Shown here piece by piece: positions 46,288-59,541 of a stretch of 64,000 bases of DNA. Origin of the DNA: Clostridiales bacterium. Its GTDB lineage: Bacteria; Bacillota; Clostridia; Christensenellales; Aristaeellaceae. The notes beneath the pieces are model-generated. The model was given only the letters and a program-made list of their open reading frames with translations. It was not told the DNA's origin and ran no database searches. The position numbers and the translations under genes were made by a program. Where the stretch lies: NCBI GenBank assembly GCA_015056125.1, contig SVGW01000001.1:97351-161350 (forward strand), read 5' to 3'. Each line of letters opens with the position of its first letter. Positions within the stretch are counted from its first letter, which is position 1.

Positions 46288-46668
46288 ATGACTGAAAACT
46301 TGAAGAAATTCCTGGAGGCCATTTCTAAGAACGACGAGCTGGCGGCGAAGGTCAGCAATATGACCAAGGATGAACTGATCGCCCTTGCCGAGGAACTGGG
46401 CATTGACCTGGCCGAGGATGACTTTGCCCAGAAGAGCGAGTTGGACGATGACGAGCTGGACGTCGTGGCTGGCGGTGGCGTGTGCGCATGCCCCTTTGTC
46501 GGCGGCGGTGTCGGAAATACAAACGCAGAAAAGTCATGCTTTTGCACTGCGGGCGGCGGCGGTGAAATATCCGATCTCGCGGGCGGCGGATGCCGCTGTG
46601 TCTGTGTGCTCGGCGGTGGCGGCAAAGCTGTTGACTCGGTTCCGTACCCTGAAGGCTACAACGAGTAA
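46288..46668 (+). CDS. Nif11-leader RiPP precursor A1, CxC type
   Basis: A 126-residue precursor. Residues 1-63 are a Nif11-like leader (MTENLKKFLEAISKNDELAA, ALAEELGIDL) ending ELDVVAGG; cleavage after Gly63 leaves a 63-residue core. The core has three Cys/Gly units: CACPFVGGG, CFCTAGGGG and CRCVCVLGGGG, seven Cys in all. Start at 46288 is supported by GAAAGGATG. The leader is nearly identical to A2. A stem-loop separates A1 and A2. Expected modification is by the SPASM radical SAM enzyme at 47.1 kb, then C39 cleavage and export. Confidence 0.85.
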   Translation: MTENLKKFLEAISKNDELAAKVSNMTKDELIALAEELGIDLAEDDFAQKSELDDDELDVVAGGGVCACPFVGGGVGNTNAEKSCFCTAGGGGEISDLAGGGCRCVCVLGGGGKAVDSVPYPEGYNE

Positions 46669-46675
46669 CATCATT

Positions 46676-46707
46676 ACAGGCAGTGAGATATAAATATCAC
46701 TGCCTGT
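46676..46707 (+). other. stem-loop between precursors A1 and A2
   Basis: ACAGGCAGTGA and TCACTGCCTGT, 11 perfect pairs, 10-base AT-rich loop, no T-run. Likely an mRNA processing/stability element setting precursor dosage. Confidence 0.6.
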
Positions 46708-46728
46708 GCAGAAGAAAGGTTCGTTTGT

Positions 46729-47079
46729 ATGACTGAGAACATGAAGAAATTCCTGGAGGCGGTTTCTAAGAACGGCGAGCTGGCGGCGAAGGTCAGCACC
46801 CTAACCAAGGAAGACCTGCTTGCCCTGGCCAAGGAGCTGGGCATTGACCTGACCGAGGATGACTTTGCCCAGAAGAGCGAGTTGAACGACGACGACCTGG
46901 AAGCCGTAGCCGGTGGCTGGACAGATTGCTTCTGCATTGCAGGCGGCGGTGGTAAGGCAGATGAGGACGGAAAAGCCTGCGCCTGCGTTGCGTTTGGCGG
47001 CGGCCAAGCAAAGGATGGCCAAAATCGTTGCTTGTGCATCGGTGCTGGCAGTGGCGACAAGCCAGTATACACAGACTGA
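46729..47079 (+). CDS. Nif11-leader RiPP precursor A2, CxC type
   Basis: A 116-residue precursor with the 63-residue Nif11 leader of A1 (MTENMKKFLEAVSKNGELAA... DDDLEAVAGG) and a 53-residue core containing CFCIAGGGG, CACVAFGGG and CLCIGAGSG, six Cys as three CxC pairs about 20 residues apart with charged spacers. GAAAGGTTC precedes ATG. It directly precedes the radical SAM gene. Confidence 0.85.
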   Translation: MTENMKKFLEAVSKNGELAAKVSTLTKEDLLALAKELGIDLTEDDFAQKSELNDDDLEAVAGGWTDCFCIAGGGGKADEDGKACACVAFGGGQAKDGQNRCLCIGAGSGDKPVYTD

Positions 47080-47135
47080 TATCCATTTGCAGACCTGCAG
47101 ATGCGCCCCCAATATATAGAAGCGCAAAGGATGAT

Positions 47136-48551
47136 ATGATGTTTTACAAGCTGAAAGAGAACTTCCTCCTGCGCGGATGGGAAAAGCTGCCCTACGCAGT
47201 GGTTGACAAGAACAGGAGAAAGCCCATCTTCATCACTGCCAAGGAGATGCAGGCGCTGGAGATGTGCAACGGTCAGATCGACCTATCCCTGCCGCTGATT
47301 CCTCAGGAGATCCGCGACATAATCCCGCAGATCGAGAAGAATGGCATCATCTCTCCCTGCGACTTCGGCGACGCCATCGCGCCGGAGCAGGCCTACAAGC
47401 TCTATCCTGCCCGCTATATCCGTACAGCGCACTGGTCCATTACCGGGCACTGCAACTACCGCTGCAAGCACTGCTACATGTCCGCGCCGGATGCAAAGTA
47501 TGGTGAACTGAGCCATGAGCAGATCATGTCCATCGTGCAGCAGCTGATCGATTGCGGCGTGATGGAGGTTTCCCTCACCGGCGGCGAACCCCTTGTCCGC
47601 AAGGATTTCATGGAGATCGTGGACGCGCTGCTGGCAGGCGGTATCCGCATCACCACCATTTATTCCAACGGCAAGCTCGTTACTGACACGCTGCTGGACG
47701 CATTGGCAGAGCGGGGCATCTACCCGGAGTTCAACATGAGCTACGATGGTGTGGACGGCTGGCACGACTGGTTGCGCGGCATTCCCAATGCCGGGAAGAT
47801 TGCCGAGGAAGCCTTCCTGCGCTGCAAGGAGAAGGGCTTCCCTACGGGCGCGGAGATGTGCATCCACAACGGCAACAAGCTTTTACTGCGCCAGACCATC
47901 AACCGCCTGGCGGAGCTGGGCTGCGGGAGCCTGAAAACCAACCCCATCTCCAATGTGGGTGCGTGGAGGGAAGGTGGCTACGGCGAAAGTATCTCCATGC
48001 AGGAGCTTTACCAGCTCTACTTTGACTACATCCCGCATTATTATGAGGATGGAATGCCCCTGTCCCTCCAACTGGGCGGATTCTTCTCGGCATCGCCCAG
48101 CAGGCCAGATCGCTACGACATCCCCTGCATGAAGCATTGCACCAAGCCGGAAAACACCTGCGTGTGCGGTCATGCGAGGATGGTGATGTACATCTCCGCT
48201 GAGGGACGTGCGCTGCCCTGCATGGCGCTCTCCGGCATGGACATCCAGCAGGAGTTCCCGCTCATCCCGGAGATCGGCCTGGCCCAGTGCATCACCGATT
48301 CCCGCTACATGGAGTTGATCGACACCCGCGCCACCGAGATCCTCAAGCACAACCCGGAGTGTGCCAAATGCGAATATGCCCTGCAATGCCTTGCTGGCTG
48401 CCGTGCAAGCGCGCTGGAAACCTCGCCCACGGATATTCTTGGGCGGGATATGGCCATCTGTGGCATCTTCAAGGGCGGCTGGACAGAGAAAATCGCGGAG
48501 CTGATGCAGAATATCCTCCCGCAGGAAAATCCGGAAGCGGCGTCGAATTAA
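47136..48551 (+). CDS. SPASM radical SAM peptide maturase for Nif11/CxC precursors
   Basis: A 471-residue enzyme. An N-terminal ~95-residue region (LKENFLLRGWEKLPYAVVDK, FITAKEMQALEMC) resembles a PqqD-like peptide-binding domain; the radical SAM cluster is C106-x3-C110-x2-C113 (CNYRCKHC), then SLTGGEPLVRKDF; the C-terminal SPASM domain has CVCGHARM, LPCMALSG and CAKCEYALQCLAGC. It resembles Nif11-class peptide maturases (TIGR04103-like, unverified). It is flanked by A1, A2 and A3, A4, so Cys-to-carbon thioether (ranthipeptide/sactipeptide-like) formation is the likely chemistry. Tandem ATGs at 47136 and 47139; AAAGG precedes both. Confidence 0.88.
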   Translation: MMFYKLKENFLLRGWEKLPYAVVDKNRRKPIFITAKEMQALEMCNGQIDLSLPLIPQEIRDIIPQIEKNGIISPCDFGDAIAPEQAYKLYPARYIRTAHWSITGHCNYRCKHCYMSAPDAKYGELSHEQIMSIVQQLIDCGVMEVSLTGGEPLVRKDFMEIVDALLAGGIRITTIYSNGKLVTDTLLDALAERGIYPEFNMSYDGVDGWHDWLRGIPNAGKIAEEAFLRCKEKGFPTGAEMCIHNGNKLLLRQTINRLAELGCGSLKTNPISNVGAWREGGYGESISMQELYQLYFDYIPHYYEDGMPLSLQLGGFFSASPSRPDRYDIPCMKHCTKPENTCVCGHARMVMYISAEGRALPCMALSGMDIQQEFPLIPEIGLAQCITDSRYMELIDTRATEILKHNPECAKCEYALQCLAGCRASALETSPTDILGRDMAICGIFKGGWTEKIAELMQNILPQENPEAASN

Positions 48552-48563
48552 GGAGGCAAAAGC

Positions 48564-48944
48564 ATGAGTGAGAACCTGAAAGCATTTCTGGCAAAAGTCT
48601 CGGCAGACGCGCTGCTGATCGAACGGCTGAAGGCGGCGAAGGAGTACGGCGAGATCATTGCGCTGGCAAAGGAAATCGGCGTGGAGCTGACGCTGGCGGA
48701 CATCGAACCCGAAAACAGTGAGCTGTCTGAAGATGAACTGAACGCTGTGTCCGGCGGAAAAAGCGGCGGCTGCTTCTGTGTTCTGGCTGGTAGCGGCGGT
48801 GGAAAGAACGGCCGGGATGATGTCTACGGCTGTGCCTGTGTGGCCTATGGCCAGGGCGGCGACGGAAGCAAAGACGATTTCACCTGCTTTTGCGCCCTGG
48901 GCGGCGAGGGTGTGATCGATGTTATGCCGGATGAACTCGTTTGA
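48564..48944 (+). CDS. Nif11-leader RiPP precursor A3, CxC type
   Basis: A 126-residue precursor. The 65-residue leader (MSENLKAFLAKVSADALLIE... SEDELNAVSGG) is more diverged; the 61-residue core holds CFCVLAGSGGG, CACVAYGQGG and CFCALGGEG. AAGGAGGCAAAAGC is a strong ribosome site. Starts 12 bases after the maturase stop. Confidence 0.85.
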   Translation: MSENLKAFLAKVSADALLIERLKAAKEYGEIIALAKEIGVELTLADIEPENSELSEDELNAVSGGKSGGCFCVLAGSGGGKNGRDDVYGCACVAYGQGGDGSKDDFTCFCALGGEGVIDVMPDELV

Positions 48945-48976
48945 GGTATGCTGTAAAGAATAAGGAGGATTTGAAA

Positions 48977-49330
48977 ATGACTGCGAACATGAAGAATTTC
49001 CTTGCCAAGGTATCCGAGGACAAGGGGCTGGCGGAGAAGATTGGCAAATTGGAGAAGGTCGATGAACTGATCGCAGCGGCAAAGGCGATTGGTATCGAAC
49101 TGACCGAGGCGGACTTTGCACAGCCGGAGGATGCCCTGAACGATCAGGAACTGACGGCCGTGACCGGCGGTGAGAAATGCCTGTGTGTTGCAGCCGGCGG
49201 CGGCACGAAGGATGACGATAGCAAGGCCTGCGGCTGCGTTGCAGCGGGCGCAGGATATCATGACAACGGGGATCAGCGCTGCTTTTGCGTGATGGGCGGC
49301 AGCGGCGATTCAGAATATGCCATTAACTGA
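48977..49330 (+). CDS. Nif11-leader RiPP precursor A4, CxC type
   Basis: A 117-residue precursor. The 65-residue leader ends NDQELTAVTGG; the 52-residue core has CLCVAAGGG, CGCVAAGAG and CFCVMGGSG. The ATG at 48977 follows TAAGGAGG. It closes the CxC cassette and is followed 45 bases later by the export genes. Confidence 0.85.
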   Translation: MTANMKNFLAKVSEDKGLAEKIGKLEKVDELIAAAKAIGIELTEADFAQPEDALNDQELTAVTGGEKCLCVAAGGGTKDDDSKACGCVAAGAGYHDNGDQRCFCVMGGSGDSEYAIN

Positions 49331-49375
49331 TGATCCATTGGCGGTCTGACGTTATTAAACAAAGGAGAAGTGACC

Positions 49376-49855
49376 ATGCCAACGACCAACAACCGTAACA
49401 CAACCCCCGGCGGGCCAGAGCTGACTCATTACCTTAAGGCCGCCCGGCCTGGCAGCTGGCTGATCCTATCGCTGACGCTGCTGATCGTGGCGATGGCGCT
49501 GGTATGGTCCTTCCTTGGCACGATGAAAACCACCATCGCCGTCACCGGCATCAAGGAGGGCGCGCACTTCACCGGCTACCTGATGCCCAAGGACACCCTT
49601 TCCATCCAGAGTGGCATGAGCGTGGACTATAAGGGGGAAAAGGCTGGCGTGCTGGTCAGCCGCGGCTTGGCCAGCATCGACGCAGCGGATATCGTCGCGT
49701 CCATTGACAATGCCTACTACAGCGATCAACTGCTGCTGAACCCCTACAATGTGGATATCCTGATCGACCTTGATCCGAACATCTGCCCGGACGGCGTCAT
49801 CACCCTGGAGATCGTGCTGGCAGAGACTCGCCCCTTTGATTTCCTGATGAACTGA
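49376..49855 (+). CDS. short membrane-fusion-like NHLP export accessory
   Basis: A 159-residue protein with a polar N-terminus, one membrane helix (about residues 30-50) and a short extracytoplasmic beta domain (TIAVTGIKEGAHFTGYLMPK, NVDILIDLDP). Position before the NHLP ABC genes and topology suggest the HlyD/membrane-fusion role of NHLP systems, but it is about half usual length and lacks the coiled-coil hairpin. The ATG at 49376 follows AAAGGAGAAG; a GTG six bases upstream is inside that site. Confidence 0.6.
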   Translation: MPTTNNRNTTPGGPELTHYLKAARPGSWLILSLTLLIVAMALVWSFLGTMKTTIAVTGIKEGAHFTGYLMPKDTLSIQSGMSVDYKGEKAGVLVSRGLASIDAADIVASIDNAYYSDQLLLNPYNVDILIDLDPNICPDGVITLEIVLAETRPFDFLMN

Positions 49856-49866
49856 GGTGGCGGCAG

Positions 49867-52014
49867 ATGAAGCATGTGAAGAAAAAGGTGCCGGTGGTCA
49901 TGCAGATGGAGGCGCTGGAATGTGGCGCCGCCAGCCTGAGCATGATTCTGGCGTATTACGGCAAGTGGCTGCCTTTGCCCCGTGTGCGCATGGAGCTGGG
50001 CGTTTCCCGCGATGGCGTAAGTGCGATGAGCATCATCAGGGGGGCACGCAGTTTCGGCATGGAGGGCAAGGGCTTCCGCTATGGCGTAGACAGTCTGCAA
50101 ACGAAGATCGCCCTGCCCTGCATCCTGTTTTGGAATAACTGCCATTTCGTGGTGCTGACGGGCTTTGGCAAGAAGGGCGCATACATCAACGATCCCGCCA
50201 GCGGTGCAATCGTTGTGCCGATGGACAAGTTTGAAAAGCAGTACAGCGGCATCGCGCTGGAGATCGTTCCGGGTGCAGGCTTTGAGCCCAGCGGGCGCCC
50301 CACCAGCGTGTGGCCCTTTGTCAAGAAGCGCCTCAAGGGGGCGGGCGGCGCATTGGCATTCCTGTCGCTGTCAGGGCTGGCTGCAGCGGTCTTTGGCATT
50401 GCCCAGCCCGCGCTGTCCTCCAGCTTTGTGGATAAGATCCTCACCGGCGCGAACACCGCTTGGCTCATACCGTTGCTGGGGATTCTCGTTGGCATGGCGG
50501 TTTTGCAGTTCCTGCTGCTGGCGGCGACGGCCTCCTACCAGAACTATGTGCAGGGGCGGTTTGCCGTATCGGCCAACTGCGCCTACCTGATGCATGTGCT
50601 GCATCTGCCCATGCAGTTTTTCTCCCAGCGCATGGCGGGCGATATTGCAGGCCGTCAGCAGGATAACGCTGCTGTGGCCAGTACGCTGATGAACACTCTC
50701 GCGCCCGTGGGCGTGGGGCTGATTACCATGGCGGTGTATCTCGCCATGATGCTCTCCATCAGCCCGGTGCTGACGCTCATTGGCGTGTCAGCGCTGGTGA
50801 TCGACCTGTTTGTGGCGCAGTACATCTCAAAGAAGCGGGTGGAGATCACGCGGGTCATCGCCCGTGACGCAGGCGTGCTGTCCGGCTCCACGGCTGGTAT
50901 CCTGAACGTGATGGAGACCATCAAGGCCAGCGGCGCGGAGGAAGGTGTGTATGCCCAGTGGACGGGTATGCAGGCCGCTGTGATGGCGGGTCAGGCAAAG
51001 ATCGCGAAAATCAACACCTATCTGGGCACGATCCCCGGTTTGCTGCTGAATATCGCCAATGTGGTGCTGGTGGCACTGGGGGCGCTGCTGATCATTGACG
51101 GTGAGCTGACCACGGGTCTGCTGCTGGCGCTGCAAAGCCTGCTGCAGTCCTTCATCACCCCGGCGGAGCAGCTGATCGCCGCTGGTCAGGAAATGACGGA
51201 GATGCGTTCCAGCATGGAACGCATTGAGGACGTGACCAACTACGAGGAGGATGTGATCTTCTCTGCGGGCGATGGCGAAAAGATCACCGCCCCCATGACG
51301 GGGAATGTCAGCATCCGCAACGTGACCTTCGGATATTCCAAACAAGCCGCACCGGTACTGAAAGATTTCTCCTTGGAGCTCACCCCTGGACGCAAGGTGG
51401 CGCTGGTGGGTTCCTCCGGCTGCGGCAAATCGACGATCGCAAGGCTGGTGGCAGGGCTGTACCAGCCGTGGGAGGGCGCGATCCTCTTTGACGGCAGGCC
51501 CATGTCTGCCTACGACCGGGCGGCGTTCACCTCCTCCGTGGCGGTGGTGGATCAGGACATCTTCCTGTTCTCCGGCACGGTGAAGGACAATTTCCGCTTT
51601 GCCGATGGCACCATCACTGACGCAGACATGATCCGTGCAGCCCATGATGCCCAGGTGCACGAGGCCATTCTCAGGCATGAAGGCGGCTATGATGCACGTA
51701 TCGCCGAGGGCGGCAGCAACTTCTCCGGCGGGCAGCGCCAGCAACTGGAGATCGCCCGGGCGCTGGCGGGGAATCCCTCTATCCTTATTCTGGATGAAGC
51801 CACCTCTGCTCTGGACGCTCAGACCGAAGCGCTGGTGATGGACGCTATCAAGGCGAGGGGCATGACCATGCTGCTGGTGGCACACCGGCTTTCTACGATC
51901 AGGGACGCAGATGAGATTCTTGTGCTGAAAAACGGTATCGTCACCGAGCGCGGCACCCATGACGAACTGCTTGCGCTAAACGGCGACTATGCGGCGCTGG
52001 TCAGCGCATCGTAA
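49867..52014 (+). CDS. NHLP bacteriocin exporter, C39 peptidase/permease/ATPase
   Basis: A 715-residue three-domain transporter. Residues ~8-140 are a C39 cysteine peptidase with Cys19 (QMEALECGAAS), His93 (NNCHFVVLTGF) and Asp109 (NDPASG), which cleaves double-glycine leaders; six membrane helices follow (~160-420), then an ABC ATPase with Walker A GSSGCGKST near 515-523, signature FSGGQ and ILILDEATSALD. It matches NHLM/NHLP ABC1 architecture. Should process and export the Nif11 peptides, the NxN peptide and perhaps the 44.7 kb peptide. Start follows GAGGTGG. Confidence 0.95.
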   Translation: MKHVKKKVPVVMQMEALECGAASLSMILAYYGKWLPLPRVRMELGVSRDGVSAMSIIRGARSFGMEGKGFRYGVDSLQTKIALPCILFWNNCHFVVLTGFGKKGAYINDPASGAIVVPMDKFEKQYSGIALEIVPGAGFEPSGRPTSVWPFVKKRLKGAGGALAFLSLSGLAAAVFGIAQPALSSSFVDKILTGANTAWLIPLLGILVGMAVLQFLLLAATASYQNYVQGRFAVSANCAYLMHVLHLPMQFFSQRMAGDIAGRQQDNAAVASTLMNTLAPVGVGLITMAVYLAMMLSISPVLTLIGVSALVIDLFVAQYISKKRVEITRVIARDAGVLSGSTAGILNVMETIKASGAEEGVYAQWTGMQAAVMAGQAKIAKINTYLGTIPGLLLNIANVVLVALGALLIIDGELTTGLLLALQSLLQSFITPAEQLIAAGQEMTEMRSSMERIEDVTNYEEDVIFSAGDGEKITAPMTGNVSIRNVTFGYSKQAAPVLKDFSLELTPGRKVALVGSSGCGKSTIARLVAGLYQPWEGAILFDGRPMSAYDRAAFTSSVAVVDQDIFLFSGTVKDNFRFADGTITDADMIRAAHDAQVHEAILRHEGGYDARIAEGGSNFSGGQRQQLEIARALAGNPSILILDEATSALDAQTEALVMDAIKARGMTMLLVAHRLSTIRDADEILVLKNGIVTERGTHDELLALNGDYAALVSAS

Positions 52015-52030: not shown

Positions 52031-54190
52031 ATGAATATCAACGAAAAGAGCATCCAGCGCGCCCAGCTTGACGATGCGATGCTGGACGCAGTCTACCGCG
52101 ATCTCGCCTCCACCGTCACAGGCAATGCCGGGCTGCAGGCGGCGCGATCTGACCGTGCGCAGACGATGGACGCGATCGGTGAAATCCTTGCGTTCTACCA
52201 CTGCAAGGCGGAGATCCCTGACGGCGTGGAGCCGGTCAGCTATGTGACCGAGACCTTGAACATTTCCTGCCGCACGGTGTTTCTCGAGGGCGAGTGGTAC
52301 AGGGATGCCATCGGCCCCTATCTGGGCAGGACGACTAACGGACAGACCGTCGCGATCCTGCCCAAACGGAACCACTATGAATACTACGACAGGAACGCAG
52401 GCAAACGTGTCCGCGTCAGCCGTCAGACGGCAGCAAATCTGGAGGCAGAGGCACAGTGTTTCTACCTGCCCCTGCCTGCCGGGAAGCTCACGCTGCGCGA
52501 CCTGTACCGCTACATGCTCAAAGCTCTGACGGTATGGGACTATGCCCAGCTCATCGGCGCGACGGCGCTGGCCAGCGTACTGGCGATGACGCTTCCTGCC
52601 ATGACGCAGCTGGTGTTCTCCGGGCTGATTCCCTCGGGACAGCTGAATCTGGTGCTGCCCATCCTGTTCCTGCTGGTGTTTTCCGTCACCTCCACCCATC
52701 TGGTGAACGTGCTCCGGACGCTGGCGGTGGGCGTGGTGAATATCCGGGCAGGCGCATCGCTGCAATCGGCGGCAATGGCGAGAGTCATGTCCATGCCTGC
52801 GGGTTTCTTTAAGCAGCACGCCTCCGGCGAGGTGGCTGCCCAGCTGAACTCCATCGACAACCTGACTGCCGCCACGGTGAAGGCGGTGTTCTCCTCCGGC
52901 CTGACGGGCTTGTTCTCGTTGATCTATATTGCGCAGATTTCCGCCTTTGCTCCGGCGCTGACGGTGCCTGCGGTGATCGTGCTGGTGCTGAAAACGGCGC
53001 TTTCTCTGGCTTGCGTGGTCATCGGCGTGAAGCGCACCAATGTGCGCATGAAGAAGCAGGCCAAGCTCTCCGGCAGGATGCTGACCATAATCAATGGCAT
53101 CCAGAAGATCCGCCTTTCCGGCGCGGAGAAGCGAATTTTCACCAAGTGGGCCAGCGAATACAAGGATGTGGCTGACCTGACCTATCGCCAGCCTAAGATC
53201 CTTCTCTACCGGCAGGCGGCGATGGGCCTCATCAGCTTGATCGGCCTTGTGGTGATCTACTACGCGGCGGCCTCCAGTGGGGTTTCTTCGGCCAACTATA
53301 TGGCGTTCAGTTCTGCCTATGGGCTGGTTTCCGGCGCATTTACGGCGCTGATCGGCATCGTGTCTACTCTGACGGAGTTCGGCCCGATGCTGGGCATGAT
53401 GAAGCCCATTTTGGAAACGGAACCGGAGATCGAACCGGGCAAGCTGGTTCCTGAGGAGCTCACCGGCAAGATCAGCGTGAGCCACGTCAGCTTCCGCTAT
53501 AACAAGGACGGCCCCATGCTGCTGGACGATGTGACGCTGGACATTGCCCCCGGCGAATACATCGCCATCGTGGGTGCAACGGGCTGCGGCAAGTCCACCC
53601 TGATGCGGCTGATGTTGGGCTTTGAAAAGCCGGAGCAGGGCGCGATCTATTACGATGATCACGACCTGAAATCACTGAGCCTGCGTGGTCTGCGCCGCAA
53701 GATCGGCACGGTGCTGCAAAACGGCCAGCTGATGCAGGGTTCCATCTTTACCAATCTTTCCATTGTAAAGCCCGACATGACGGAAGTCGAGGCCTGGGAA
53801 GCTCTTGAAAAGGCGGGCTTGGCCGAGGATGTGCGCCGTATGCCCATGAAGCTCAACACCATGCTGGGCGAAAACGGCGCAGGCATCTCTGGCGGACAGC
53901 GCCAGCGGCTGCTGATTGCCCGGTCGATGGTGGGCAATCCGAAAGTTGTCTTCATGGACGAGGCCACCTCCGCGCTGGACAATGTGGCGCAGGCTCATGC
54001 AGTCAGCTCGCTGGATGCACTGAACTGCACCCGCGTGGTGATTGCTCATCGTCTTTCGACCATTCAGAATTGTAGCCGCATCGTGGTGCTGGACGGCGGC
54101 CGCATCGTGGAAGACGGCACCTACGATGAATTGATCGCCCTGAATGGCCGCTTTGCCCACTTGGTGGCGCGACAAAGGCTGGATGCCTGA
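52031..54190 (+). CDS. NHLP bacteriocin exporter, second permease/ATPase
   Basis: A 719-residue ABC half-transporter with a ~155-residue soluble N-terminal domain that is not a C39 peptidase (no catalytic Cys/His), six membrane helices (~165-440) and an ATPase (GATGCGKSTLMRLML, ISGGQRQRLLIARSM, VFMDEATSALD). This is the NHLM ABC2 type, expected to dimerise with ABC1. AAGGAGG lies 9 bases before ATG 52031; an upstream extension overlaps ABC1. Confidence 0.93.
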   Translation: MNINEKSIQRAQLDDAMLDAVYRDLASTVTGNAGLQAARSDRAQTMDAIGEILAFYHCKAEIPDGVEPVSYVTETLNISCRTVFLEGEWYRDAIGPYLGRTTNGQTVAILPKRNHYEYYDRNAGKRVRVSRQTAANLEAEAQCFYLPLPAGKLTLRDLYRYMLKALTVWDYAQLIGATALASVLAMTLPAMTQLVFSGLIPSGQLNLVLPILFLLVFSVTSTHLVNVLRTLAVGVVNIRAGASLQSAAMARVMSMPAGFFKQHASGEVAAQLNSIDNLTAATVKAVFSSGLTGLFSLIYIAQISAFAPALTVPAVIVLVLKTALSLACVVIGVKRTNVRMKKQAKLSGRMLTIINGIQKIRLSGAEKRIFTKWASEYKDVADLTYRQPKILLYRQAAMGLISLIGLVVIYYAAASSGVSSANYMAFSSAYGLVSGAFTALIGIVSTLTEFGPMLGMMKPILETEPEIEPGKLVPEELTGKISVSHVSFRYNKDGPMLLDDVTLDIAPGEYIAIVGATGCGKSTLMRLMLGFEKPEQGAIYYDDHDLKSLSLRGLRRKIGTVLQNGQLMQGSIFTNLSIVKPDMTEVEAWEALEKAGLAEDVRRMPMKLNTMLGENGAGISGGQRQRLLIARSMVGNPKVVFMDEATSALDNVAQAHAVSSLDALNCTRVVIAHRLSTIQNCSRIVVLDGGRIVEDGTYDELIALNGRFAHLVARQRLDA

Positions 54191-54225: not shown

Positions 54226-55239
54226 ATGGCTCATCATGAGGTGTTCGTAGATCTCAACCATTACCGCCTGACCCGCGGGCCCATCATGGTATCCTTCGAT
54301 ACCACGCAGCTTTGCAATCTGCGGTGTGTCCATTGCTTCAACAACAGCGGCGACCAGGCCCCCAACGCTGACCTCCCCCGGGCGCAGCGGCTGGATATTG
54401 CCAGGCAGATCGCCGAGTTGCACCCCTTCAATGTGTGTATGTGCGGCGGAGAAAGCCTGTGCTGTTCCGACCTGTTCGACATCATGGACATCCTCCGCCC
54501 GCACGTGGGCAAGCTGAGCATGGTCAGCAACGGCTTCCTGATGACGCCGGAGATGGCTCGCAGGCTGGTAGACCACGGACTGGATCTGGCGCAGATTAGC
54601 ATCGATGGCGCCAACGCCTGGCAGCATGACAGTTTCCGGGGTGTGCAGGGTTCCTTTGACCGGGCCGTCTCAGCGGTGCGTAACCTGATTGCCGCAGGGA
54701 TCTCCTCGGTGGATGTGTCGATGGTTCCCAACCAGCTGAACTGGCAGAGCCTGGAGGAATACGCCGCGCTTTGCCATGACCTTGGCGTGCAGCAGATCCG
54801 CCTGATGCCCTTCCTGCCCTCCGGCCGGGGCCGCTCGGTGGGGCGCAATCTGATGCTGGATGAGGAGCAGTATTTCCAATTCTGCCGCAGCCTGGAACGG
54901 CTGGATGCGAAATATCAGGGCAGGCCTGCCTTCCAGTGGGGCGACCCCATCGATCACATGCGCAGGATGCCGACCAATGCAAGCCTTGGCCTGCACTCCT
55001 ACTCCATGGAGATCAAGGCCAATGGCGATCTGTCGCTGAGCACCTATCTGCCGGTGCTGGTGGGCAACTGTACCCGCCACACCCTGCGGGAATACTGGGA
55101 CGGCGGCTACAAGGAGCTGTGGGCAAAGGAGGAGCTGACCCGCTACACCGGGCAGATCCGCAACATCTACGACCTGGAAACCTTCGAGCCCGCGCCCTAT
55201 AGCGGCGAAACCATCATGATTGACATTCTGGAGGCGTAA
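54226..55239 (+). CDS. radical SAM peptide maturase 1, SPASM-less
   Basis: A 337-residue radical SAM enzyme. The cluster motif is C30-x3-C34-x2-C37 (CNLRCVHC); the SAM motif is surrounded by extra cysteines, C71-M-C73-G-G-E-S-L-C79-C80. No SPASM cysteine set is present at the C-terminus. It is a paralogue of the enzyme at 57.8 kb, sharing QHDSFRGV/QHDSLRGA, MPFLPSGRGRS and NIYD. AAGGAGAAG precedes ATG. Next gene follows by one base. Epimerisation of core residues is a plausible role in view of the precursor, but substrate and chemistry are inferred from context. Confidence 0.85.
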   Translation: MAHHEVFVDLNHYRLTRGPIMVSFDTTQLCNLRCVHCFNNSGDQAPNADLPRAQRLDIARQIAELHPFNVCMCGGESLCCSDLFDIMDILRPHVGKLSMVSNGFLMTPEMARRLVDHGLDLAQISIDGANAWQHDSFRGVQGSFDRAVSAVRNLIAAGISSVDVSMVPNQLNWQSLEEYAALCHDLGVQQIRLMPFLPSGRGRSVGRNLMLDEEQYFQFCRSLERLDAKYQGRPAFQWGDPIDHMRRMPTNASLGLHSYSMEIKANGDLSLSTYLPVLVGNCTRHTLREYWDGGYKELWAKEELTRYTGQIRNIYDLETFEPAPYSGETIMIDILEA

Positions 55240-55240
55240 G

Positions 55241-55987
55241 ATGCGATACTTGATCAACAGCAGCGCCTTTACCCGGAAGGAAGCGCAGAACGGCGTGATC
55301 CCCATGAAAGCCGATTTTCGTGCGCTGTTCCTGAAGGAAAGCGCCGGCATACTGTTGGAAAAAACGGATGAATGGATCGACTTTGAAGACGTAGCCCAGG
55401 GCGCGTCTGAACAGCTGCGTCGCGATCTTCGCGATGGCCTGACGCTGCTGGAGTGCTTCGACATCGCGCAGATCGAGGAGGAAAAGCCCGTCAAGCTCTG
55501 CTGCGTGGCTGGCGAGAGGGACTACCGCCGCATCAGCGCGTTCCTTGAACGTCATGCCGGGAAGGGCCCCAACCAAAGCCTGCCCTATGCCCAGCTGCTG
55601 CACAATGAGGATGGCATCCGCGCACGGCAATTTAACAACCACGAATACAATTTCCTGGCCGAACGGGAGGGGCAGATCATTGCGCTGATGATCGTGCGTC
55701 CCCCGGCAGCGGGCGATGTTTCCAGTGTGGTGTACCTCCAGCATGTGGTATATGCTGAAGAGCTTCCTGAGGCTGAACAGGCCGCGCTGCTGGAAATCAT
55801 GCTGGCTGAGGTGGAAAACGCCTTCCGTCAGGACTACGCCCGGCTGCGCTTCCAGTACTTCGACGGCCGTCAGGATGGGATGCTCTCCGCGCTGGTGGCG
55901 CAGGGATTCCTGAAAACCTGCACGCTGGAGCGGGAACTGCGGGGCGGCATTGACCTGACGATCTACGACCGGAAAATAGGAGGATGA
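55241..55987 (+). CDS. PqqD-like/acyltransferase-like partner protein 1
   Basis: A 248-residue soluble protein. Residues ~20-85 look like a PqqD/RRE winged-helix fold (FLKESAGILLEKTDEWIDF, LRRDLRDGLTLLECFDIAQI), which would bind the precursor leader; the C-terminal ~150 residues have a GNAT-like pattern (RARQFNNHEYNFLAERE, ALLEIMLAEVENAFRQ, LVAQGFLK). It is paralogous to 58771-59541, each placed directly after a radical SAM gene. ATG is one base after the preceding stop; GGAGGC is the ribosome site. Domain assignments are by eye. Confidence 0.6.
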   Translation: MRYLINSSAFTRKEAQNGVIPMKADFRALFLKESAGILLEKTDEWIDFEDVAQGASEQLRRDLRDGLTLLECFDIAQIEEEKPVKLCCVAGERDYRRISAFLERHAGKGPNQSLPYAQLLHNEDGIRARQFNNHEYNFLAEREGQIIALMIVRPPAAGDVSSVVYLQHVVYAEELPEAEQAALLEIMLAEVENAFRQDYARLRFQYFDGRQDGMLSALVAQGFLKTCTLERELRGGIDLTIYDRKIGG

Positions 55988-55990
55988 TCT

Positions 55991-57388
55991 ATGCTCCTTG
56001 CTGAAAAGAAATACACGCAGGCCCTTCGGGATGTGTGCGAAAAAATCGACTATGCCTTTACGATCAAGGCATTTCGCGGACTGTACGGCTTCCATGATCC
56101 TTGGTTCGATTATGCCTCCATGGAGCGCTGCCTGAGCCATATGGAGAACCCCTGCAAGGCCGCCTTCCGCATCCTGCACCTGGGCGCAGGGGTGGAGGAA
56201 GATGCACTGGCTGGCGAGATCGGCCAGGAGGCGATCGACACCTTGATCGAGGCAGGGCTCTGGCACAAGGAAGATGATCGCATCGAGACCAACAACTATG
56301 TGGTGATCCCCTATCAGGGGCTGCTGCTGGTGGTGGAGACCAATCCCTGGTTCCCCAGCTGCACCAATCATAATATCGACGTCTACCTGGGCAGCGACAG
56401 CTACCGCCTGGCAGAGAACATCGGCTATCAGCGGGGCGAGACGGCGCTGGACTTGTGCAGCGGCAGCAGCATACAGGGCCTGCTTTGTGCCCGGTTTGCC
56501 CGCAAGGTGGTGTCGGTAGAGCTGAATCCCAAGGCTGTGCCGGTGACACGCTTCAACATTTTTCTCAATAATTGTGAAGATAGGGTTGAATTGCGCGAGG
56601 GCGACCTGTATAATGTTCTTAAAGAGGGCGAAACCTTCGACTGCATCTATGCCAATCCCCCCTTCATCCCCATGACGGAGGATGTGACATACCCCATCTG
56701 CGGCACCGGCGGCAGGGACGGCCTGCAGGTGCTGCGCCGTATTGTGGATGGCCTGCCCAAGTACCTCAATCCAGGCGGCGAGGCGATCATTTTCTGCGAA
56801 TGCCTGGGAGATAACAAGGGCGTGTTCTTTGACGCGGATGTCCAGCGCATTGGCAGCGAGCATGGCTGGCAGACCAGTCAGATCCTCCCTGCAAGGCTGG
56901 AGACCAGTCATCAGATCTGCAAGCTGGCGGATCTGACAGCGCTGTTCAATCAGGATCTGGATAAAGCAGCGCTGCGCCGACAGATGGAGGATATCTACCG
57001 CGATCTGGGCGCGACTTACCTGTACAGCATCCTCTACCGCATCCATGCGGTCGGGAACGGGGATGGGCAGATCCGCCGCATCCGCCAGCATAACCCGTGG
57101 GATATGGAGGATCGGGCGAGCCTTGACCCGTCGGTCACCACGGGCCCCAACATGAATGTACAGAGCATCTGGCGCGGGAAGCGCCACATGGGCGTCCTCA
57201 GCAGAGAAAAGGCCGATATCCTCGCGCAGATGCAGGAGGGCAAGTCCATCAGCGAGGCTGCGGAGGCCCTGTGGGGGAAGTATGCCGACAAGCCCCGCTA
57301 TCAAACGGAGGGCTACCCCGCCTTCCTGAGCCGTGTGCTGGATACCTGCATGAATCTTGAAAGCATTGGCGCTTTGAAGCGTCTGTGA
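55991..57388 (+). CDS. NPPF-type SAM methyltransferase, candidate Asn N-methylase
   Basis: A 465-residue class I methyltransferase. Residues ~1-145 are a winged-helix-like N-domain (as in DUF7059-MTS proteins); motif I is D154-L-C-S-G-S, an acidic SAM-ribose position is in VVSVELNPKA, and the catalytic motif is N222-P-P-F225. The (N/D)PP(Y/F) motif is that of enzymes methylating planar nitrogens, including the Gln side-chain amide (PrmC/HemK). Encoded next to a precursor rich in ordered Asn, it is a strong candidate for Asn side-chain N-methylation, analogous in role to PoyE/AerE. C-terminal ~130 residues unrecognised. GGAGGATG precedes the ATG. Confidence 0.85.
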   Translation: MLLAEKKYTQALRDVCEKIDYAFTIKAFRGLYGFHDPWFDYASMERCLSHMENPCKAAFRILHLGAGVEEDALAGEIGQEAIDTLIEAGLWHKEDDRIETNNYVVIPYQGLLLVVETNPWFPSCTNHNIDVYLGSDSYRLAENIGYQRGETALDLCSGSSIQGLLCARFARKVVSVELNPKAVPVTRFNIFLNNCEDRVELREGDLYNVLKEGETFDCIYANPPFIPMTEDVTYPICGTGGRDGLQVLRRIVDGLPKYLNPGGEAIIFCECLGDNKGVFFDADVQRIGSEHGWQTSQILPARLETSHQICKLADLTALFNQDLDKAALRRQMEDIYRDLGATYLYSILYRIHAVGNGDGQIRRIRQHNPWDMEDRASLDPSVTTGPNMNVQSIWRGKRHMGVLSREKADILAQMQEGKSISEAAEALWGKYADKPRYQTEGYPAFLSRVLDTCMNLESIGALKRL

Positions 57389-57411
57389 AAATAGACAGGA
57401 GAGGTGTAAAC

Positions 57412-57789
57412 ATGTCTGACGAGAAGAAGATCATCAACCCCGACGAGAACGAGCCCAAGAACCCTCTCAAGCCGGAAGAAACCGCGCCTGAAAAGAGGGC
57501 CGACGAGAAGAAGGCGGAGGAAGAAGCTGTGCTCTACGACGCCAGCGAGCTTTCCGACGACGATCTGGAGGGCCTTTCCACGGAAGAACTGGAGGATAAG
57601 GACGGCGCAGGCTTCTTCTTCGTGCCTGTTTTTGTAGCGGCCAACGTGAATCTCGTTGCTAATGTAAATGCAGGCGCCAACCTGAACGTCGCCGCCAATG
57701 CCATGGCAGCGGCCAATGCCGTGGCGGCAGCCAATGCCGTGGGCGTGGCTAATGCCAACGCGATGACGAATGCCAATGTCGTTGACTGA
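57412..57789 (+). CDS. polytheonamide-like RiPP precursor with six-residue Asn ladder
   Basis: A 125-residue precursor. Residues 1-66 are a highly charged leader with no Nif11 homology, ending LSTEELEDKDGA, which matches a Gly-Ala variant of the double-glycine site (L-12, S-11, E-8, L-7, G-2, A-1). The predicted 59-residue core starts GFFFVPVFVAA and contains Asn at core positions 12, 18, 24, 30, 36, 42, 48 and 54, and again at 14, 20, 26, 50 and 56; the rest is Ala, Val, Leu, Gly and Met, with no Cys, Ser or charged residue before the final Asp. One Asn per six residues is the register of polytheonamide-type beta-helices. The coding DNA shows an 18-base quasi-repeat. GACAGGAGAGG precedes ATG. 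Confidence 0.85.
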   Translation: MSDEKKIINPDENEPKNPLKPEETAPEKRADEKKAEEEAVLYDASELSDDDLEGLSTEELEDKDGAGFFFVPVFVAANVNLVANVNAGANLNVAANAMAAANAVAAANAVGVANANAMTNANVVD

Positions 57790-58774
57790 TGCAGCTGATC
57801 AGCGCTGTTATTACGACAGCGTTGCGCTGAACATCACCAGCCGCTGCAATCTCCGCTGCCTGCACTGCTACAATGGCAGCGGAGAGAATACGCGGAGGGA
57901 CATGGACCGGTCGGCGCTCATTCGGGCTGCCGATGCGGTGCTTTCTCTCAAGCCCTTCAATCTCTGCCTGTGCGGCGGGGAGCCCTTGTGCTGCCCTGAT
58001 TTGCTGCCGCTGCTGGAGCATCTGCAGGGGCGAGTGCCGCAGATCTCCATGGTGACCAACGGCTTTGCATTGGATGAAGCATGGGCAAGGGCCCTTGCCG
58101 CCCACGGCGTCAGCGCGGTGCAGGTGAGCCTGGACGGCGCGTATGCCTGGCAGCATGACAGCCTGCGGGGCGCAGCAGGCTCTTTTGAGCGTGCCGTGAA
58201 AGCCATCCGGGCGTTGCGGGCAGCAGGCATTGTGCAGGTGGTATGCTCCATCCTGCCCAACCGGCTGAATGCGGATTCGCTGGAGGAGTATGTTCAGCTC
58301 TGCCTTTCGCTGGGGGTGGACATCATCCGCGCCATGCCCTTTTTGCCATCGGGACGGGGACGGAGCATGGGCCGTCCGCTGATGCTGGACGAGGAGGGTT
58401 ATTTCCGCTTCCGGCGGAGCCTGTGGCGGCTGTCCCGGCAATACGGCAGCCAGATCCGCATTGAGTGGGACGATCCGCTCCAGGTGATCCTCGGCATGCC
58501 CGGGCGCATCCACACCGAGGAGAAGGAGCCCATGCTGGAGATTCGCGCCGATGGCCAGCTGGCGCTGACCAGCTACCTGCCCATCCTCATGGGCGACTGC
58601 ACCGTTGACGGCGCTTTTGACGATCTTCGCGCTGCCTTTGCTGCTGCGCGCCGCGTGCCGCAGGTGCGGGACTATGTCTGCGCCATTCACAATATTTACG
58701 ATTGGGACGCCCTCGATCCTTTGCCCTACGGAGAAGAGAGCATCCAACTTGATCTGCTGGAGGGAACAACGTGA
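57770..58774 (+). CDS. radical SAM peptide maturase 2, SPASM-less
   Basis: A 334-residue paralogue of the 54.2 kb enzyme. C26-x3-C30-x2-C33 (CNLRCLHC) and C66-L-C68-G-G-E-P-L-C74-C75 are conserved, again without C-terminal SPASM cysteines. The start is uncertain: ATG 57770, ATG 57776 and TTG 57782 are in frame and all overlap the end of the precursor gene; no clear ribosome site, implying translational coupling to the precursor. The stop overlaps the next start (GTGA). Confidence 0.85.
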   Translation: MPMSLTDAADQRCYYDSVALNITSRCNLRCLHCYNGSGENTRRDMDRSALIRAADAVLSLKPFNLCLCGGEPLCCPDLLPLLEHLQGRVPQISMVTNGFALDEAWARALAAHGVSAVQVSLDGAYAWQHDSLRGAAGSFERAVKAIRALRAAGIVQVVCSILPNRLNADSLEEYVQLCLSLGVDIIRAMPFLPSGRGRSMGRPLMLDEEGYFRFRRSLWRLSRQYGSQIRIEWDDPLQVILGMPGRIHTEEKEPMLEIRADGQLALTSYLPILMGDCTVDGAFDDLRAAFAAARRVPQVRDYVCAIHNIYDWDALDPLPYGEESIQLDLLEGTT

Positions 58775-59541
58775 GATACCGCATTGATCGGGAGGACTTC
58801 TTTGCCCGCGAGGAAGAGCAGGGCACCATGGCGATCATGGTTTGCAGGACAAACCAGATCCTGCACTTCAACCGCGCCGGGCGGCATATCTTTGATGTGT
58901 GTGACCGCTGGGTGGAGCTGGATGATTTCCTGCAGAATCTTGGCGCGGTGAACACAACGCCTGCGAAGCTGCGCAGATATTTCGAGGAGCTCCTGTACAA
59001 GCTCCACGCCTGCGGCCTGGCCAAGCTGGAGGAGCTCCCCAAGCCTGTCGGCACCGGCTGCCGTCTGGCGCAGCTAAGCGACTATATGCACATATCCCGT
59101 TTCCTGACTGCCAACGCGCAAAAGGGACAGAGCTGCGCCACCATGGTGGGCGTGCGCTACAACGGGCCTTATGGCGTGTATACCAGGCTTTATGAGAAGC
59201 AGACCTATTATCTCCTCAGCGAGCGGGAGGGGGAGCTGCTCGCACTGCTAGAGATCAGCCCGCCCTCCCATATTTCCGGCAATGCGGTTTTGAGCATCTC
59301 CACCGCCGTGTTCCGTGAGGAACTTGATTCGCCATCTGCGTGTGAGCAGCTGCACCTGCTGATGGATTACGCCGCGAAGCTGTTTGGCGGACATGCCTCC
59401 AAGCTGCGCTATCCCTATATGCATCCCCGCCAGCAGTGGATGCGCGATGCGCTTGCAGGCTGCGGCTTTGCCCAGACTGCATTTTTCCCCTGCGAGCTTC
59501 AAAACGGAAGCGACATGATCTGGTATGACCGGATGATTTAA
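58771..59541 (+). CDS. PqqD-like/acyltransferase-like partner protein 2
   Basis: A 256-residue paralogue of the 55.2 kb protein: an N-terminal PqqD/RRE-like region (residues ~20-95, MVCRTNQILHFNRAGRHIFD, FEELLYKLHACGLAKLEE) and a C-terminal GNAT-like domain (YYLLSEREGELLALLEISPP, MRDALAGCGFAQTAFFP). GTG start overlapping the radical SAM stop; GGAGGGA is upstream. Last gene of the island operon, before a strong terminator. Likely delivers the precursor to radical SAM 2; acyl transfer is untested. Confidence 0.6.
   Translation: MRYRIDREDFFAREEEQGTMAIMVCRTNQILHFNRAGRHIFDVCDRWVELDDFLQNLGAVNTTPAKLRRYFEELLYKLHACGLAKLEELPKPVGTGCRLAQLSDYMHISRFLTANAQKGQSCATMVGVRYNGPYGVYTRLYEKQTYYLLSEREGELLALLEISPPSHISGNAVLSISTAVFREELDSPSACEQLHLLMDYAAKLFGGHASKLRYPYMHPRQQWMRDALAGCGFAQTAFFPCELQNGSDMIWYDRMI

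Follow-up and report, generated by a model that had tools for sequence, protein, structure and literature searches.

The analysed window is a stretch of 64,000 nucleotides in which an open reading frame of 125 amino acids (57412-57789, stop codon 57787-57789) is preceded by a ribosome-binding site, AGGAGAGG (57397..57404), 7 bases 5' of the ATG. This frame and the other window features given below with coordinates are on the + strand. The encoded protein is composed of a leader of 66 residues (57412..57609), which is rich in Glu, Asp, Lys and Pro and ends in ELSDDDLEGLSTEELEDKDGA, and of a core of 59 residues (57610..57786), in which a Phe/Val head is followed by a ladder of Asn with a period of six. 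Upstream are found the genes of a radical SAM enzyme (rSAM-A, 54226..55239), of an accessory protein with an RRE-like N-terminal part and a C-terminal GNAT fold (accessory A, 55241..55987) and of a methyltransferase (55991..57388). The 3' end of the precursor frame overlaps the start, at 57770 or 57776, of the gene of a second radical SAM enzyme (rSAM-B, 57776..58774, open from 57770), followed by accessory protein B (58771..59541), a homologue of accessory A with 29% identity.

Asn had been noted at core positions 12, 18, 24, 30, 36, 42, 48 and 54, with a second partial ladder, and this is exactly what the core contains: counted from the residue after ...KDGA, Asn is present at positions 12, 14, 18, 20, 24, 26, 30, 36, 42, 48, 50, 54 and 56. 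All 13 occupy even positions and none an odd one, the latter consisting of 16 Ala, 7 Val, 2 Leu, 2 Gly, 1 Phe, 1 Thr and 1 Asp. The description of the other residues as small or hydrophobic largely holds, save for one Pro, one Thr and the C-terminal Asp; the core is devoid of Cys, Ser, Lys, Arg, His, Tyr and Trp. Shuffling reproduced the eight successive Asn at spacing six once in 200,000 trials for a 61-residue stretch and never in 200,000 trials for the 59-residue core. With any spacing from 2 to 11 allowed, a run of this length came up 15 times in 200,000 for the 61-residue stretch, and 13 of 13 core Asn on one parity 7 times in 200,000. As the period could also stem from hexad duplication or tandem copying, a source that shuffles leave in, the conservation among homologues and a diverged precursor from genome G994 weigh more than these counts.

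A search of 5.8 billion proteins yielded, among 488 candidates, 18 homologues of the precursor, which are close relatives. In the alignment of 19 rows (window included), 17 of the 18 homologues carry Asn at all eight ladder positions and no core Asn off parity; the C-terminus of the other, P0009, is altered and looks frameshifted, and this row was dropped for column counts. In the 18 remaining rows, the 13 Asn columns are all invariant against 17 of the 46 other core columns (compared by a Fisher's test that takes the columns as independent, the sequences being related). The check proposed with the original prediction, namely that the Asn register is kept in homologues while other positions drift, was thus in its favour. 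New Asn occur only in P0016 and P0017, at core position 44, a slot of the second ladder, and P0007 contains one whole hexad more, its Asn still in register. The leader diverges (in the 18 rows, variation affects 34 of the 40 N-terminal positions and 13 of the 27 residues 41-67) while the GAG junction and the FFVPV head are conserved; ELSDDDL and GAG are invariant in 19 of 19 rows. The same locus is carried by L002, a deer-rectum Clostridia MAG, in agreement with the Clostridia-like host that had been proposed. Relative to L002, 19 of the 59 core codons differ synonymously and 10 non-synonymously; for the 66 leader codons these numbers are 8 and 11.

Hexad repeats occur in left-handed beta-helix proteins, and the frame could encode an ordinary structural repeat protein (left-handed beta-helix, hexapeptide-like or amyloid-like) that is never cleaved or modified. 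The polar/nonpolar alternation fits ordinary beta-strands and a sub-threshold Hexapep match was obtained for 1 of 19 precursor-family members (E 0.014). We consider this reading very improbable: the precursor stands between modification enzymes in a conserved order, the junction and the head are kept where the leader drifts, and relatives of the cassette enzymes adjoin a short precursor with a different repeat.

The ladder precursor matches no Pfam or NCBIfam family at E<=0.01 and none in NCBIfam at E<=1, the Nif11 leader (TIGR03798) included, whereas 4 of 4 neighbouring leaders match Nif11 (TIGR03798) in the same NCBIfam scan; the matches of the precursor family to Pfam DUFs were all below cut-off and scattered. 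The claim that the leader resembles neither nitrile hydratase nor Nif11 was borne out, the NCBIfam and Pfam libraries presumably including nitrile-hydratase-like leader models. The nitrile-hydratase-like or Nif11-like leader of proteusins was accordingly not found in these two libraries, and the cassette also departs from proteusins by its separate RRE-GNAT-like proteins. Cleavage between leader and core is predicted after Gly-Ala (...KDGA) or Gly-Ala-Gly, for which the calculated monoisotopic mass of the unmodified core is 5670.85 Da or 5613.83 Da, respectively. By eye, acidic residues precede Gly-Ala, which differs from what we take to be the classic double-glycine site.

The methyltransferase gene adjoins the precursor gene and its product is an AerE relative by sequence and, among the matches listed in the fold searches, by fold (24% identity to AerE). 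The AerE fold covers residues ~3-366; unlike AerE, the cassette enzyme has an extra C-terminal domain (residues ~376-464, window 57116-57382). In the predicted order of strands and helices this domain appears RRE-like, and it is possibly a fused leader-binding domain; PqqD was found in the C-terminus of none of 36 members among the best 25 of 37 families. The enzyme is predicted to be an Asn side-chain N-methyltransferase, so that the locus holds an AerE/PoyE-type counterpart of the polytheonamide/aeronamide pathway. Polytheonamides and aeronamides also share with the window a hydrophobic head and core Asn at spacing six on one parity, the polytheonamide positions being those given in the available part of PMC11285071. 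According to the same part of that source, methylated Asn 16, 22 and 28 of polytheonamide are linked by hydrogen bonds into a chain that follows the helix, and insertion of a one-turn hexad gave a methylation efficiency comparable to that of the natural precursor. By analogy, the one-hexad extension of P0007 looks like a natural version of this experiment. The adjoining AerE relative and the register kept in homologues both support a polytheonamide-like precursor, and the Asn ladder beside such an enzyme makes a polytheonamide-like membrane channel likely.

In genome G994, a methyltransferase 47% identical to that of the window lies at one contig end, and a precursor, found with the profile of the first precursor family (E 3.6e-10), lies at the start of a different contig. 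BLASTP aligned the G994 and window precursors over only 21 columns around GAGFFF, an alignment that may have been shortened by masking of the simple core. The G994 core of 55 residues carries Asn at 14, 20, 24, 26, 32, 38, 42, 44, 48, 50 and 54, seven of them successive at spacing six and all 11 on one parity; in 200,000 shuffles this run was obtained 6 times, the parity 54 times and both together never. The genes 3' of this precursor encode a radical SAM C-methyltransferase (TIGR03975, 386.5 bits for a cut-off of 281.85), then rSAM-B, then GNAT-B. The C-methyltransferase, a further likeness to polytheonamides and aeronamides, carries CWWAMRHRCRFC, a Cx7Cx2C motif as reported for PoyC in the available part of PMC11285071. 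In the window's own genome (82% complete), no B12-dependent radical SAM C-methyltransferase (TIGR03975) was found.

rSAM-A and rSAM-B are 46% identical. Nine cassette rSAMs, several being closely related, share as invariant Cys residues 30, 34 and 37 (rSAM cluster) and 71 and 73 (CxCGGE motif, present in rSAM-A), and all nine have only 1-3 Cys after residue 200, none of them conserved; rSAM-A is thus without conserved SPASM cysteines. The rSAM of the neighbouring Nif11 system has LTGGE where the cassette enzymes have CxCGGE, few other rSAMs having been compared. The best curated-family matches of rSAM-A and rSAM-B fall far below cut-off, and the cassette rSAMs rank among GeoRSP/SkfB/PqqE/MoaA-like families; against solved rSAMs, a profile that includes one non-cassette rSAM matched SkfB (2.2e-35), PqqE (8.8e-26) and YydG (1.7e-13). 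We know of no Asn ladder or AerE-type enzyme in epipeptides (YydF/EpeX with YydG/EpeE). Their system resembles the cassette in that an rSAM adjoins the precursor and in the YydG match, which stands behind SkfB and PqqE. The epipeptide EpeE differs by its two [4Fe-4S] clusters (available part of PMC8326336), whereas the cassette rSAMs, like those of polytheonamides and aeronamides, are without conserved auxiliary-cluster cysteines. rSAM-A is predicted to be a peptide epimerase, an assignment drawn from the Cys pattern, the Asn parity and the company of an AerE-type enzyme. The partner protein would here supply the RRE. A scan of five accessory proteins detected PqqD in one of them. The structure model of accessory A shows a GNAT fold, and the accessory-protein profile matched no acetyltransferase at a significant E-value (best 0.19). 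To our knowledge, the GNAT domain has no counterpart in proteusins.

These enzymes might act otherwise: in a RiPP with Asn N-methylated by the AerE-type enzyme, the rSAMs would carry out crosslinks or dehydrogenation and no D,L helix would form. The ranking of the rSAMs is compatible with such a chemistry. The PoyD model TIGR04517 matched nothing at E<=0.001 in the own genome, and it was equally silent in 14 control genomes. RRE-GNAT partners are absent from the epimerases described in the available part of PMC8326336. This alternative is nevertheless unlikely in view of a core without Cys, Tyr, Trp, Lys, Arg or His as crosslinking sites, of enzymes devoid of conserved auxiliary-cluster cysteines, and of one-parity Asn in long precursors and in a short one from genome G619, which suits chemistry on every second residue.

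In G619, the trio rSAM, RRE-GNAT and methyltransferase is followed by a precursor of 55 residues whose core has Asn at every second residue save one gap, 13 of 13 on one parity. A protein search with this precursor gave 12 matches at E <= 0.1, of which six are above 1e-3 and weak when taken alone. All 12 share the pattern; in 10 of them every Asn counted falls on a single parity, with one exception each in P0084 and P0087. Two of the 12 are hypothetical proteins from Streptococcus suis (E 6.3e-4) and S. pyogenes (E 9.9e-3). These two (P0083 and P0086) are short peptides with Asn at every second residue and a Trp near the end. Period six is therefore not universal, and the general rule for long and short precursors alike is the parity, which is what epimerisation of every second residue would predict. 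Neither methyltransferase nor asparagine nor polytheonamide occurs as a term in the available part of a streptococcal review (PMC13361665). Elsewhere on the G619 contig, a LanM-like protein and a small peptide containing Cys and Thr (L006 2377-5942) were seen by eye to adjoin the short Asn cassette, possibly as a separate lanthipeptide cluster, and a B12-type radical SAM protein, with a TIGR03975 match below cut-off, lies upstream of it (L006 11328-12644).

Upstream of rSAM-A, the window encodes an NHLM-type exporter with a C39 peptidase domain (49867..52014; TIGR03796, 853.2 bits for a cut-off of 853.3; Peptidase_C39, 1.7e-29), a second NHLM-type exporter subunit (52031..54190; TIGR03797, 654.7 bits for a cut-off of 709.4) and a short HlyD-like protein with a weak match (49370..49855; TIGR03794, E 0.0018, far below cut-off). 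A similar exporter pair was recognized by eye in L013. The C39 exporter is predicted to cut the leader and to export the peptide. Four Nif11-leader precursors (starting at 46291, 46729, 48564 and 48977, within 46291..49330), with repeated CxC-(I/V)A-GGG-like cores, flank their own rSAM (47139-48551) and adjoin the same exporter, as in Nif11-leader RiPPs exported by NHLM transporters; they form a second peptide system, which probably shares the exporter with the ladder cassette. The ladder precursor differs from such RiPPs by the lack of a Nif11 match and of Cys in its core. Between exporter and rSAM-A, a Nif11-like peptide with an acidic tail is found in L002 (6431-6751; 24.3 bits, below cut-off) and in L013 (2609-2935) and is absent in the window.

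Methylated and stacked Asn could also belong to a surface or adhesive fibre, or to an intracellular peptide. No immunity gene was identified, and the mean hydropathy of successive core segments (1.82, 0.62, 0.85, 1.33 and 0.09) does not fall smoothly, two points compatible with a product that is not a channel. We regard such a product as improbable, given the C39-type exporter upstream and a hydrophobic head (1.82 for the first 12 residues) followed, after 1.33 for residues 37-48, by a more polar tail (0.09 for the last 11), which loosely resembles the axial amphipathicity described for polytheonamide in the available part of PMC11285071.

The methyltransferase was found in six genomes, by searches that gave 2 of 396, 2 of 391, 4 of 308 and 2 of 398 (own genome in each count); two smaller searches returned only their centres. 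All six show the gene order rSAM, RRE-GNAT, methyltransferase (the window; G351, presumably L002; L013; L012; L006; L011), and a precursor with one-parity Asn is known in four of the six genomes. The contig of G955 ends inside the methyltransferase gene, and in G1131 no precursor was found on the contig or in the genome. Within the genus, the precursor search found the own genome only (1 of 29), and 1 of 60 among drawn relatives, which indicates a patchy distribution. Viral contigs, scanned with alignments of the methyltransferase, of the long precursors and of the short ones and with the methyltransferase of G1131, gave no match; neither did phages with the short streptococcal peptide, the one query used on them, nor PHROGs with four proteins. 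On plasmids, the G619 methyltransferase had seven matches, partial and weak, and the short streptococcal peptide had none. The cassette was not described in the titles and abstract openings listed for openly available papers, which does not prove that it is unpublished.

We therefore favour, as the probable explanation, that the frame encodes the precursor of an exported polytheonamide-like peptide whose core would form an alternating D,L beta-helix with stacked N-methyl Asn, acting as a channel. The rSAM/RRE-GNAT pairs A and B would epimerise every second residue, on the parity that holds all the Asn, and the AerE-type methyltransferase would then methylate the side-chain amides of D-Asn. With six residues per turn, the methylated D-Asn would align in columns and lock the helix. 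After cutting by the C39 exporter behind Gly-Ala (or Gly-Ala-Gly), the freed peptide would insert its Phe/Val head into a target membrane as a channel. The likeness to polytheonamides lies in the Asn register and the methyltransferase, which are the features that can best be judged from sequence. On this basis the ladder peptide would represent a family of polytheonamide-like RiPPs that has a leader and an rSAM/RRE-GNAT pair of its own, outside the proteusins by its leader. Gramicidin, an alternating D,L beta-helix channel, would share this working principle; it differs in being non-ribosomal, of 15 residues and without Asn ladder.

As far as we know, channels of the polytheonamide type have been described in a sponge symbiont and in a small number of other bacteria. 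We tentatively propose, as a reading with a little under an even chance, that the cassettes form a second lineage of D,L beta-helix channel peptides, assembled separately in anaerobic Bacillota, in which an AerE-type methyltransferase is joined to a new epimerase class (SPASM-less CxCGGE rSAM with RRE-GNAT partner) and to leaders unrelated to those of proteusins, ranging from long, membrane-spanning cores (59 residues, period six) to very short ones with Asn at every second residue. The short cores, including those of the S. suis and S. pyogenes hypothetical proteins, could be half-length, gramicidin-like pores. A compact six-gene cassette from gut Clostridia, with a natural one-hexad length variant and a short sister, would provide an expressible model of how helix length and the Asn columns are encoded. 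It would also show whether unrelated epimerases have been combined with AerE-type methylation on more than one occasion, and would extend what is known of the arsenal of gut anaerobes by channel-forming peptides.
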